A stretch of 56,475 nucleotides of DNA from an uncultured Armatimonadota bacterium (GTDB lineage Bacteria; Armatimonadota; Fimbriimonadia; Fimbriimonadales; Fimbriimonadaceae), in assembly GCA_903833215.1 (NCBI GenBank), contig CAILEM010000045.1, positions 1-56,475 of the forward strand, in the 5' to 3' direction. The notes under the pieces are model-generated. The model did not search any database. It saw only the letters and a program-made list of their open reading frames with translations, and was not told the DNA's origin. The position numbers and the translations under genes were made by a program. Positions 16,351 through 55,202 of the stretch are shown here, piece by piece. The stretch's first letter is position 1; every line of letters starts with the position of its first letter.

Positions 16351-16475
16351 AACCCACCCCGAGCGAAATCTTGTTGGCTACTAAACCCTTGATCGTATTT
16401 CATTGCACCTCTAAAGTCAGTCATTGAGGTGACCTCACCGATAAGGAGTCGACTAGAACCCACGGCAAAACCACC

Positions 16476-16535
16476 GTAGGAGTCATCAGACCTGATTTAC
16501 CAGGACAGTTCTTAAGCAGGGCGAACTCCATGCCC
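16476..16535 (-). ncRNA. Fluoride (crcB-type) riboswitch aptamer
   Basis: The minus strand reads GGGC-ATGGAGTTC-GCCC for the first stem and loop, then ...AACTG, a variable hairpin (CCTGGTAAATCAGG) and the hallmark 3' end TCTGATGACTCCTAC. The conserved elements of the fluoride aptamer (first stem, GATG-like loop that forms the pseudoknot, and the GATGAC..CCTAC end) are all in the expected order. The loop reads ATGGAGTTC and can pair with GACTCC of the 3' end. Downstream is a possible expression-platform hairpin (ACGG...CCGT). It would switch on the CLC gene when F- rises. Confidence 0.88.
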
Positions 16536-16655
16536 TCACTACGCGACCTCGCGTAATGAAGCGATTATACTCAAGCGAAATCGCCGTGGTCAGGGGCCGA
16601 CTTCCGCCCGACGGTGTTTCGCCGCCGATAGAAAGCACAAAGGAGTGAAGAACTA

Positions 16656-33612: not shown

Positions 33613-33678
33613 AACCGTAGGTCCATTTATGCCGCACCAATGTTCGCAATGTCGCCAAATCCCCCGGTATTTGTGGGT

Positions 33679-33694
33679 GCGAGGCGTGCCTCGC
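33679..33694. repeat. 16-nt palindrome GCGAGGC-GT-GCCTCGC
   Basis: A 7-bp stem around GT. The same CGAGGCGTGCCTCG core was the target interrupted by the MITE at 36239, which shows it is a dispersed repeat of this genome. Confidence 0.6.
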
Positions 33695-35045: not shown

Positions 35046-36224
35046 ATGACTTTGCTCGCATTGCTCTTCGCTATGACGATCCATCCCAATCCTCAGCCCG
35101 ACAAAATCACGGTTGCGAGCTACTACTTCGGAAATTACCATCCGGGTGACCCTCGAAATGTAAAGGCAAAAGGAGCTGGCTGGTCCGAGTGGGAGTTGGT
35201 GAAGAACGCCAGACCGAGATTTTTGGGGCACCATCAACCGAATGTTCCACTTTGGGGCTACACCGATGAATCGGACCCAAAAGTGATGGCTAAGAAGATC
35301 GATGCCGCGGCCGATCACGGAATCGACGCCTTCATTTTCGATTGGTACTACTACGACGATGGACCGTTTCTGGATCGCCCCATCGAGCGCGGGTTCTTGA
35401 AGGCACGCAACAACAAGCGAATGAAATTTGGTCTCATGTGGGCGAATCACGACTGGACGGATATTCACCCTTACCGTCGCGGTGCGCCGCACCGCTTGCA
35501 GTACCCAGGTCGGTTTACGCCAGAGACCTTCGACAAAGTCGGAGACCTGTTGGTCAAGCACTACTTCGGCCATCCGTCGTATTGGAAGATCGATGGTAAG
35601 CCCTATTTTTCTTTCTACGAACTCTCGAAGCTGGTGGAGAGTTTTGGGTCTGTTCAGGCGACGCGCACTGCTCTCGATCGTCTCCGGGCAAAGGTTGTGG
35701 CTGCCCACATGCCGGGACTACATCTCAATGCGGTTGTATGGGGTCAGACGATTCTCCCTGGAGAGCGGCAGCCAGCGGATAATGTCAAGCTAATCAAGGA
35801 CCTCGGATTCGATTCGGTGACTTCCTACGTGTGGATTCATCACGTGGGACTGCCCGATCAGCAAACCGACTACAACTACGTTCGAGACGCATATTTCAAA
35901 TACTGGAAATCGGTCGATCACCAGTTCGGCGTGCCCTACTTTCCAAACGTGACGATGGGATGGGATTCAAGCCCCCGTGCCGATCAGCGCGACGAGTTCG
36001 CAAACGTTGGTTACCCCTTCATGAATACGATCTCCGGCAACACTCCGGAGAGGTTTCGAGAAGCACTCGAGATGACCAAGCAGCATCTGCTAAAACACAA
36101 GGACGGACCCCGAATTCTCAACATCAACTGTTGGAACGAGTGGACCGAAGGCAGCTATTTGGAGCCGGACACCGTCCACGGCCTGAAGTACCTGGAAGCC
36201 ATCAAGTCAATCTTCCGAACGTAG
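35046..36224 (+). CDS. WbsX/GH99-like glycan protein
   Basis: A 392-residue protein of the glycosyltransferase WbsX / GH99-like family. Key stretches are ASYYFGNYHPGDPRN, GWSEWELVKNARPRFLGHHQPN (the PxxxGHxQP signature), FIFDWYYYDDGPFLDRPIERG, GLMWANHDW and NCWNEWTEGSYLEPD near the C-terminus. The conserved E in NEWTEG and the other acidic residues fit an endo-alpha-mannosidase-like TIM barrel. The family is found in O-antigen and polysaccharide loci. A weak signal peptide (MTLLALLFAMTIHPN) suggests export. It starts 10 nt after the esterase and is likely co-transcribed with it. Confidence 0.88.
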   Translation: MTLLALLFAMTIHPNPQPDKITVASYYFGNYHPGDPRNVKAKGAGWSEWELVKNARPRFLGHHQPNVPLWGYTDESDPKVMAKKIDAAADHGIDAFIFDWYYYDDGPFLDRPIERGFLKARNNKRMKFGLMWANHDWTDIHPYRRGAPHRLQYPGRFTPETFDKVGDLLVKHYFGHPSYWKIDGKPYFSFYELSKLVESFGSVQATRTALDRLRAKVVAAHMPGLHLNAVVWGQTILPGERQPADNVKLIKDLGFDSVTSYVWIHHVGLPDQQTDYNYVRDAYFKYWKSVDHQFGVPYFPNVTMGWDSSPRADQRDEFANVGYPFMNTISGNTPERFREALEMTKQHLLKHKDGPRILNINCWNEWTEGSYLEPDTVHGLKYLEAIKSIFRT

Positions 36225-36238
36225 GGGCGAGGCGTGCC

Positions 36239-36415
36239 TTAATGTCAAACAGATTTGGTATTTCAACAGCCGCCGTAGCCGCCGGGTGGCTTGTACCGGC
36301 GTTCGGACCGTTCGCTAAGACCCAAAATGGGTTCAAGCCGCGAGCTGGGTGCGCGGCCAGACACCATGCCGTGGCTACAGAATAAGCTCATTCTGCCAAA
36401 ACTGTTTGACATTAA
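36239..36415. mobile_element. MITE with 22-bp inverted ends and 8-bp target duplication
   Basis: A 177-bp non-coding element bounded by inverted ends: TTAATGTCAAACAG at 36239-36252 and its exact complement CTGTTTGACATTAA at 36402-36415. The match extends to about 22 bp with 2 mismatches. It is flanked on both sides by the direct repeat GGCGTGCC (36231-36238 and 36416-36423), an 8-bp target-site duplication. Removing the element and one copy restores CGAGGCGTGCCTCG, the palindrome that is intact at 33679. It carries no gene and would depend on a transposase elsewhere. Confidence 0.9.
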
Positions 36416-36481
36416 GGCGTGCCTCGATTCTTGTTACCGCTGTGATCGGCCACCGTTGGGTTAGCAGGGCCTTCGCTTCCC

Positions 36482-38122
36482 CTACTGATTTCGGCGGTCA
36501 CCCCTGGGCCGGGCGGCTGCGGCTGCGGCTGCCAATCCTTTCTTGAATGGGGCGAGCATGGGAGGGGGGAGGTCTTTCCATTCAATGGGCTTTGCCTGGT
36601 GATCAAACAAAGTCGTAGCGAACCCGGTTTCGACAGAATCACCTTTCCCATTCGAGATTGTAATCTTCACGGATTGGTTGGTAGCCGTTTGGTATCGAAT
36701 GTCGCCCTGGTGGGTATTGACTCGAATTTTGTATCCGGCTCCGGCCAACTCGGGAGATTCAACTTGAGAAAAGTCGCCTGTCCAAGTCAAAAGGACGGGG
36801 ACTTCCTCGACGACGGCACGGACGCTCAGGTTGGATGCTTCAAGGCTCGACCATGTTCCCGGATCACCAATCCCTCGCTCAAGCGTCGATGGGTCGGAAG
36901 GATAGATCCGAGCCATAGATTGCAGCAGAATCGTCTCGATTTGGGAGATTACAGCCTTACTCAACGCTGAAAGCGGAAAACTCTTCTTACTTCTCAGCTT
37001 TTCCCAATCGGCCTTCTTAAGGCTCCCAAAGAGTCGCACGTTGTACGGGAAATCAGCTCCATACGCCTCGGACATTACGACGTGGTAGCTTGCTGCATTG
37101 ATGGCCCCATCGGAACCTGCATCACTTGCCATTGCTCGTTGTTTTGCCAAGTAGGATGCGACGTCGGGCAGACTCACCATGAAATGATGCCGACCAAAAT
37201 CGAGAAACTGCTCAAACGCTTGCCGAGATGCCTGCGTCCTGAGCTTAGCCTCCATTGGCGTTAAGCGCGCTATCGCGGCTTCACCGTCGGTAATCCATTC
37301 ATCCGAATTGGAGAATAGACCTAGGGCGTCGCGAATAGTCTGAGTTGGCTTTCTCGTCGTATCGAATCGGAAGCAATACCAAGTCGAATCGGGAAGTGCG
37401 ATCACAAAATCTGATCCGACCACGGCTGCAACCGGCTTCAGGGCGGGATTTGCCCACGAACTGATGGGATCACCCGAAGGAAAGTGATCGGGCAGCCAAT
37501 TGGGTGCAGGCTTTGCCAAATCTGACTTGAGCAGGGATTCGACCGTTGGCGGTAAGGCAGCAAACTGGGTCTGGCCGCTGGCAGTGAACATATCCGAAGA
37601 ATTCGCCCATCCACTTCGGATGTGATCGAACACGCCGTAAGCCAAGCGCCGTACTCGCCACATCAGTTTCGGGGTAGCAAACCTCGATTTCTGCATGGAC
37701 GCTGGCAACGGACGGACATGCGGTCCGGGCTTCACACCGAACCGCAAGATGGTTCCTGGCTTCATCTCATACAGTTCCCGAACGGGTAAGCCATTGGCAG
37801 CTTTTCCACTGAAAGCTTGCTTATACTGCCGTTGAAATCCTTCGAAATCCTCATCCTTCGTTGGAATGACGGGTGTCAACCTTAAGCCTGAGTCAGTCGC
37901 CACCCACTTGCCGCGTAATGCGATTCCGATCAGTTTCTCGACTCGAGATGCGTCATCGGGCTTTACGCTGATGAACAGAGGATAGTCCTCCAAGGCGGCA
38001 TCAACGGTGTGCTTGACTCCGGTGACGTCAGTCAGTGTTCGACACAGGTCCGGTACGGTGTACACCTCCGGCGAAAGCGTCATTGGTGGATTTATTACCA
38101 GGCTGATAAGGAAGGGAATCAT
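36482..38122 (-). CDS. Hypothetical secreted protein with STN-like N-terminus
   Basis: From ATG 38122 the product has 546 residues (the frame is open to 38263, and an ATG at 38143 is an alternative). A short signal MIPFLISLVINPPMTLS is followed by a region resembling the secretin/TonB short N-terminal (STN) domain (VYTVPDLCRTLTDVTGVKHTVDAALEDYPLFISV...LIGIALRGKWVATDSGLRL). The remaining 450 residues are not recognised. The C-terminus has a run of seven alanines and a basic tail (PRGDRRNQ). The alanine run is coded by GCTGCGGCTGCG-type triplets. Export and envelope association are inferred; function is unknown. Confidence 0.65.
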   Translation of the reverse strand: MIPFLISLVINPPMTLSPEVYTVPDLCRTLTDVTGVKHTVDAALEDYPLFISVKPDDASRVEKLIGIALRGKWVATDSGLRLTPVIPTKDEDFEGFQRQYKQAFSGKAANGLPVRELYEMKPGTILRFGVKPGPHVRPLPASMQKSRFATPKLMWRVRRLAYGVFDHIRSGWANSSDMFTASGQTQFAALPPTVESLLKSDLAKPAPNWLPDHFPSGDPISSWANPALKPVAAVVGSDFVIALPDSTWYCFRFDTTRKPTQTIRDALGLFSNSDEWITDGEAAIARLTPMEAKLRTQASRQAFEQFLDFGRHHFMVSLPDVASYLAKQRAMASDAGSDGAINAASYHVVMSEAYGADFPYNVRLFGSLKKADWEKLRSKKSFPLSALSKAVISQIETILLQSMARIYPSDPSTLERGIGDPGTWSSLEASNLSVRAVVEEVPVLLTWTGDFSQVESPELAGAGYKIRVNTHQGDIRYQTATNQSVKITISNGKGDSVETGFATTLFDHQAKPIEWKDLPPPMLAPFKKGLAAAAAAARPRGDRRNQ

Positions 38123-38230
38123 GAATTTGGCACCATTATTCATCAGATGAGATCGAATGCGAAACGGATGGTTTCGCAATCCCATGCCTGAGTGAGTTAT
38201 CTTGGGGCACTGGCGTCCCGCGAATCCGCG

Positions 38231-38236
38231 TATGAT
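38231..38236 (+). promoter_or_regulatory. -10-like hexamer TATGAT, 5 nt before ATG start
   Basis: TATGAT, 5-nt gap (GTGCA), then ATG 38242. It is near-leaderless and lies between divergent genes. Confidence 0.4.
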
Positions 38237-38241
38237 GTGCA

Positions 38242-38793
38242 ATGCGGATTTTTGGGAAGTCAACCGGGCTTTGTATTTTGGCGTTTTGTGTCACAACTGT
38301 TTGCGCGCAAGAGCGGACAGCGCAACAGAAGACAATTGAGCCAAAACCAGAAGACGTAGCGTCGATGGACTCGATTATCAAAGCGACCTACGACGTCATC
38401 TCTGGGGCAGCGGGGCAGAAGCGTGACTGGGACAGAATGCGATCGCTCTTCGCCGCAAAAGCACGACTTGGAGCAGCCGTGAGGACTCAGAAGGGCGACC
38501 TCCGTTACATCCCGATGGAAGTCGAAGACTACATAAAGATGTCGGGCCCCTACCTAGAAAAGAACGGGTTCTTCGAGCGCGAGATATCAAGGCACGTCGA
38601 CACATTCGGAAACATCAGCCAAGTCTTCAGTACCTACGAATCGCGCAACAAACTCGACGACAAAAAGCCGTTCGAAAGGGGAATCAACAGCTTCCAGCTG
38701 TTCAATGACGGAAAGCGATGGTGGGTCGTCTCGATCTACTGGCAAGGCGAAGATTCCAAAACCACGATCCCGCGAAAGTGGCTCAGAAGATAG
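38242..38793 (+). CDS. Secreted NTF2-like protein
   Basis: A 183-residue exported protein. The signal peptide is MRIFGKSTGLCILAFCVTTVCAQ. The mature part has an NTF2-like outline: an N-terminal helix SMDSIIKATYDVISGAAGQKRDWDRMRSLFAAKARL, a central VEDYIKMSGPYL, then the closing strands ISRHVDTFGNISQVFSTYES and GINSFQLFNDGKRWWVVSIYWQ. The SFQLFNDGKRWWV strand pair is the best mark. Role unknown; NTF2-like proteins often bind small molecules. It precedes the APH kinase at 38821 by 27 nt. Confidence 0.75.
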   Translation: MRIFGKSTGLCILAFCVTTVCAQERTAQQKTIEPKPEDVASMDSIIKATYDVISGAAGQKRDWDRMRSLFAAKARLGAAVRTQKGDLRYIPMEVEDYIKMSGPYLEKNGFFEREISRHVDTFGNISQVFSTYESRNKLDDKKPFERGINSFQLFNDGKRWWVVSIYWQGEDSKTTIPRKWLRR

Positions 38794-55048: not shown

Positions 55049-55202
55049 GTAGCCATATTACACCTGCGTAGTCAGAAGCCCCCGTAGTCGACGTCTCCGT
55101 CAAGTCCGTGTCCGTGTCCGTGGCGTCGATCAGAACGGTCAGTGACCATTCACCTTGGCAGGTGAACGCGCAGTGGACCTTGCTATGAAAACGTAAAAAC
55201 TA
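55049..55202. other. Short intergenic region with tandem and inverted repeats
   Basis: The tandem array GTCCGT x3 is at about 55114-55131, and the 7-bp hairpin TTCACCT-tggc-AGGTGAA at about 55149-55166. The latter may be a terminator for the LacI gene. No gene is seen. Confidence 0.45.

Follow-up and report, generated by a model that had tools for sequence, protein, structure and literature searches.

How does a mobile element come to sit exactly at the centre of a palindrome, and what put it there? The question is raised by a locus in the 6.2-Mb genome of an uncultured Armatimonadota bacterium (Fimbriimonadaceae), lying in a window of 56,475 nt of contig CAILEM010000045.1 (assembly GCA_903833215.1), the whole stretch of DNA analysed here. 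We consider it probable (roughly 0.82) that the element is a MITE, a non-autonomous DDE transposon with ends of the IS4-subgroup type, which was inserted by cut-and-paste at the two-fold axis of a REP hairpin. The window contains the following features.

36221–36239, + strand: 5′ part of the target REP, GTAG tag and half of the hairpin; the TAG is the stop of the open reading frame 35046–36224
36230–36239, + strand: left copy of the target-site duplication, AGGCGTGCCT (10 bp), from copy alignments
36240–36414, + strand: MITE, 175 bp, TAATGTCAAACAG...CTGTTTGACATTA, from 37 genome matches and alignments
36240–36258, + strand: left terminal inverted repeat, 19 bp, matching the right end at 18/19 positions and perfect (19/19) in the consensus
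36275–36301, + strand: REP in the MITE core, GTAGCCGCCGGGTGGCTTGTACCGGCG, with the motif of the REPs that flank the RAYT gene at C59:8205–8468
36352–36378, − strand: second, inverted core REP, whose reverse complement begins GTAGCC
36396–36414, − strand: right terminal inverted repeat, 19 bp, from end comparison and family consensus
36415–36424, + strand: right copy of the target-site duplication, AGGCGTGCCT (10 bp), from copy alignments
36415–36485, + strand: remainder of the target REPIN, namely the second half of the hairpin, a linker and a decayed inverted REP ending CCCCTAC
33673–33694, + strand: unoccupied REP of the target family, an intact copy with hairpin GCGAGGCGTGCCTCGC at 33679–33694
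16470–16544, − strand: fluoride riboswitch, 40 bits (gathering score 34)

The element and the hairpin that it occupies

Further copies of the element, whose absence the first-pass annotation had named as a ground for abandoning its reading, are numerous: BLASTN against the same genome returns 37 matches (28 internal copies, with 9 more that are fragments at the ends of contigs) with 78–94% identity to the copy in the window and E below 1e-13, so that the MITE is not a chance arrangement. Related MITEs also occur in sister species. The copies fix the boundaries, which had been drawn one base too far out at each end (177 bp). One copy (L012) lies in a second type of REP, reading AGGGCGCTCCC / TAATG...CATTA / GGGCGCGCCC (flanks also given as CAGGGCGCTCCC / TAATG and CATTA / GGGCGCGCCCTG), and the right ends of two more (L011 and L027) likewise lie in this second type. 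Since the bases adjoining TAATG and CATTA thus vary with the target, the outer T and A belong to the target and not to the MITE, which leaves an element of 175 bp and a duplication of 10 bp rather than the 8 bp first read. The inverted ends, initially taken as 22 bp with 20 matches, measure 19 bp and agree at 18 of 19 positions here; in the consensus built from 16 complete copies they match throughout (TAATGTCAAACAGTTTTGG). The first base of the element varies (TAATG, AAATG, GAATG). In most complete copies both halves of the duplication carry the identical loop variant (GT/GT, AC/AC, CTCT/CTCT). An informal look at the copies revealed no conserved reading frame. The element is therefore short, apparently non-coding and multi-copy, and has terminal inverted repeats and a target duplication, as a MITE does. 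Matches among relatives were obtained in 3 of 60, each 28–36 bp long and confined to the core REP.

The target had been described as a dispersed palindrome and hairpin repeat; it is dispersed and palindromic, but it extends beyond a 14-bp palindrome, being a REP, a GTAG-tagged hairpin that frequently occurs with an inverted partner (REPIN). Here the pair extends from the GTAG at 36221 to the CTAC at 36485, and the TAG of each tag is the stop of one of the two convergent flanking frames (at the distal tag, the CTA of CCCCTAC serves the frame 36482–38263 on the − strand). Read without the insert, the REP would be GTAGGGGCGAGGCGTGCCTCG and the empty REPIN would have the form GTAG...GCGAGGCGTGCCTCG...; the intact palindrome announced at 33679–33694 is indeed present. 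The pattern of the REP is GTAGGGGC-NNN-GCGTGC-N'N'N'-GC, with stems that vary while pairing is kept (GACGCGTGCGTC, AGCGCGTGCGCT, ACGGCGTGCCGT, ATGGCGTGCCAT). A contig sample of 1.7 Mb (28% of the genome), from which all REP counts are taken, holds 45 matches, including 7 inverted pairs, most of them 76–81 bp long; the control search gave 7 matches, all at the loosest threshold. GTAG tags, imperfect palindromes in large number, pairing of copies in inverted orientation and compensatory stem changes give the family the traits of REPs and REPINs, and unoccupied members are spread over the whole genome. No RAYT of its own was found at any of the 7 Y1 transposase loci in the genome, and it is thus an orphan REP family in this assembly.

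Three side observations concern these REPs. The window has a further member of the target family at 1362–1383, with stem GCAGCGCGTGCGCTGC. In 11 of 37 REPs the TAG of the tag closes an open frame 100 codons long or longer, as compared with 6.3% of random GTAG; stop codons seem often to be supplied by REPs. At G000 C67:10957–10978 a REP stops at its hairpin tip and unrelated sequence takes over, which may mark the junction of a further insertion.

Insertion at the palindrome centre

The preference for palindromes suggested by the first-pass annotation holds across the family. Counting a contact with a REP tip as at most 3 mismatches in 13, we find one next to 28 of the 29 intact left ends and 29 of the 31 intact right ends of the MITE, against a background of 0.057% of genome positions. 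The exceptional left end lies at the start of contig C71; it may pair with the end of C149, an inferred joining that would produce the palindrome GAGTC-GG-GACTC with a duplication matched at 9 of 10 positions. At least two palindrome types are used by the MITE in this genome.

Sister species extend the pattern. In G007, G004 and G019 there are MITEs with ends like NAATGCCATCCAGTTT at other palindromes, with duplications of 10–11 bp: in G007 the palindrome is CACTGGCTGGAAGCCAGTG and the duplication GGCTGGAAGCC (11 bp), in G004 they are GCGTGATAAATCCCGC and TGATAAATCC (10 bp), and in G019 the palindrome GCGGATCAATGTCCGC, with a 6-nt unpaired stretch at its centre, has a duplication of 10 bp. Among eight hand-picked targets with a usable duplication, six show complementarity with a clear peak at the very centre of the duplication; in G019 the maximum also lies there but is less marked, and one G007 site has no complementarity. 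Most of the hand-picked targets have the dyad at the middle of the duplication; a G007 site without a dyad (insertion L316 in that species has a 12-bp duplication and no dyad) and a G007 copy with hybrid flanks do not.

How might such precision arise? We envision a scenario whereby a transposase dimer captures the palindromic target, probably through its paired arms, and joins the two transposon ends about 5 bp to either side of the dyad on opposite strands, with even-centred palindromes yielding a duplication of 10 bp and odd-centred ones of 11 bp. REPs would then be safe landing pads for the MITE, because they are abundant, provide near-perfect dyads and are mostly intergenic.

Alternatively, the target of the same MITE might be recognised once its hairpin is extruded, whether as a cruciform or in single-stranded DNA, and be cut a set number of base pairs down the stem from the loop. 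Three target types agree with this, in that the duplication equals the loop plus 8 (2-nt loops give 10, a 3-nt loop gives 11), and we regard it as a possible, though distinctly less likely, mode of targeting: the rule fails at the G019 target, where an unpaired centre of 6 nt goes with a duplication of only 10 bp, which fits measurement from the dyad and not from the loop edge, and we dropped the rule on this account. As single-stranded DNA, the 265 nt that the two tags enclose, tags included, fold much better than shuffled sequence (z = −5.4), as one would expect of nested inverted repeats, and we claim no function for this fold.

REPs of a different family lie inside the MITE, whose core contains GTAGCCGCCGG...CCGGCG and an inverted partner. 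Together with the REP target, this core pair makes the locus a REPIN within a MITE within another REPIN. The genome encodes three RAYT-like genes, two of them with their REPs on both sides. The core-REP motif flanks both sides of the 166-aa RAYT at C59:8205–8468 (L173; NCBIfam REP_Tyr_transpos 84 bits, cut-off 80); a second gene, L174, falls narrowly short of the cut-off with 79 bits and has around it the REP into which the IS4-family element described below inserts; the third, L172 (78.5 bits), is surrounded by yet another GTAG repeat. The inverted core pair and its kinship with the repeats around an above-threshold RAYT raise the idea that the whole unit was spread as an enlarged REPIN by a RAYT tyrosine transposase instead of a DDE enzyme. 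We hold this to be improbable, given that a 10-bp duplication and perfect 19-bp ends are DDE features, that the sister-species MITEs have related ends, and that the 1.7-Mb sample has no free REPIN matching the core outside the MITE, motif and closing arm together recurring only at the RAYT locus. It is more improbable still that the palindrome is part of an element with inverted ends of about 31 bp (CGAGGCGTGCCTTAATGTC...) and no target duplication, as the extension of the window copy's inverted repeat to 31 nt at 90% complementarity and the flank common to most copies could suggest, for the same palindromes exist intact without the MITE (24 exact 16-mers), copies also lie in a different REP stem and in GAGTC-GG-GACTC, and sister-species elements with related ends occupy quite different palindromes.

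Returning to insertion by a DDE transposase at the dyad, some copies have irregular flanks. Five (L010, L011, L016, L017 and L018) carry the tag side of the REP on both flanks, most of them with loops of opposite sense, and in six (L006, L010 and L016–L019) the left and right loops are inverted and not identical. Recombination between MITEs residing in both hairpins of one REPIN would give the flanks of L010, L011 and L016–L018, and the neighbouring MITEs needed for it do exist: on C153, L014 and L021 point the same way and are separated by about 100 bp. Tobes and Pareja explain the hybrid flanks of ISRm22 by the same kind of recombination between copies (PMC1525189). We do not extend this account to L006 and L019, whose loops are inverted inside one REP.

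A surviving IS4-family element

Which transposase might have moved the MITE? The first-pass annotation had pointed to a full-length insertion sequence with the same ends. In this genome a search for the exact ends found none, and only an IS4-family element with related ends is present; it too inserts at a REP dyad. This element is 1,397 bp long, with ends CAATGCCATCAAGT / CAATGCCATCAAGTATTTTTCG, and is complete on contig C78 and broken by contig ends elsewhere. It encodes a DDE transposase of 447 aa with the signature Y-x2-R-x3-E-x6-K as YAKRWNIETDIRTLK and D-80-D-112-E, the two D positions having been chosen by motif and not by alignment. The protein matches NF033592 IS4 with E=9e-25 at 87 bits, below the NCBIfam cut-off of 115, and passes PF01609. 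Each of the 5 junctions sampled falls at the middle of another REP, GTAGTCGACGTCTCCGTGGCGTCG, empty copies of which are common in the contig sample; an 11-bp duplication, GTCTCCGTGGC, is implied from left and right junctions on different contigs. A remnant of the REP family targeted by this element, GTAGTCGACGTCTCCGT..., lies in the window at 55085–55135.

The ends of the MITE match the subgroup pattern -AATR--------WTW fully (TAATG..., with TTT at 14–16). Those of the IS4-family element match at AATG and miss one WTW position (TAT at 14–16), and they differ from the MITE's at several of the first 13 positions. As the two sets of ends are related but not the same, the MITE's own driver has either been lost, lies in unassembled sequence, or is the surviving IS4-family protein acting on a relaxed end. 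We infer that the MITE was moved, presumably by cut-and-paste, by an IS4-subgroup transposase related to the surviving one but not identical with it.

Other candidates were set aside. The DDE_Tnp_1 loci L175–L177, L179 and L180, and L324 and L325 in G004, had no related ends. Single end-like matches at C154:47105, C121:22574 and C67:82682 and in G025 and G007 lacked a paired end within the surrounding stretch examined and were taken as chance, as were 28 matches to the exact 19-bp end, mostly in Pelagibacteraceae and other marine genomes, in a broad contig set that may omit near relatives. At a threshold of 1e-20, no homologue of the L178 transposase turned up among the 19 congeners.

Known systems and implications

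REP and PU elements are the specific target of IS1397, ISKpn1, IS621, ISPpu9/10 and ISPa11 (PMC1525189). IS1397 and ISKpn1 belong to the IS3 family and IS621 to IS110, families other than IS4, and ISPpu9/10 have direct repeats of 2 bp and ISPa11 none (PMC1525189), in contrast to the 10–11 bp observed in our case. A close parallel is ISRm22 of Sinorhizobium meliloti (IS4 family, subgroup IS4Sa), all copies of which lie in REPs at the axis of palindromy (PMC1525189, PMC2266710). It shares with the elements described here the IS4 type, insertion at the REP axis and hybrid flanks ascribed to recombination between copies, whereas its direct repeats are reported as 6 bp, and it is autonomous, lives in another host and has no miniature derivative in PMC1525189.

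Members of the IS4 subgroup have -AATR--------WTW ends with a relaxed first base, duplications of 10–13 bp and the YREK signature, and some display "spectacular apparent insertion specificity" in the target arms (PMC2266710). The DDE and YREK spacing of the surviving element and the duplications (10 bp in the MITE's case and, by implication, 11 bp in the element's) accord with this description; the element is slightly shorter than the 1400–1650 bp of the subgroup (PMC2266710) and misses one WTW position, and the MITE is without a transposase. The target and the MITE core resemble known GTAG-tagged REPs, REPINs and RAYT-associated repeats in being GTAG-tagged hairpins in inverted pairs, and the internal pairs are reminiscent of, though distinct from, the dimers that A. 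variabilis has inside long palindromes (PMC3733652, PMC3116915). In the open-licence literature that we searched, there was no MITE with the habit of inserting at REP centres, let alone one with an internal REP pair, nor any set of diverse palindromes whose duplications centre on the dyad. REP-targeting insertion sequences, an IS4-family one included, are thus already known; the new details are a miniature element, nested repeats, and insertion centred on the dyad in several different palindromes.

A wider, tentative notion is that the IS4-type transposon lineage of this genus recognises two-fold symmetry itself and not a sequence, and follows whichever hairpin each species has amplified, and that the MITE, having captured a REP pair, might unite in one small unit the recognition signals of two unrelated transposition systems, DDE and RAYT.

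REPs are usually studied on their own, and here they are the landing pad of a second mobile family. At least two types of palindrome are used by the MITE, another by the related full-length element and more in the sister species, and this natural variation in stem and centre is material for testing how a DDE transposase chooses a palindromic target. The locus also exemplifies a mobile element that multiplies while sparing genes, by nesting in another repeat family.
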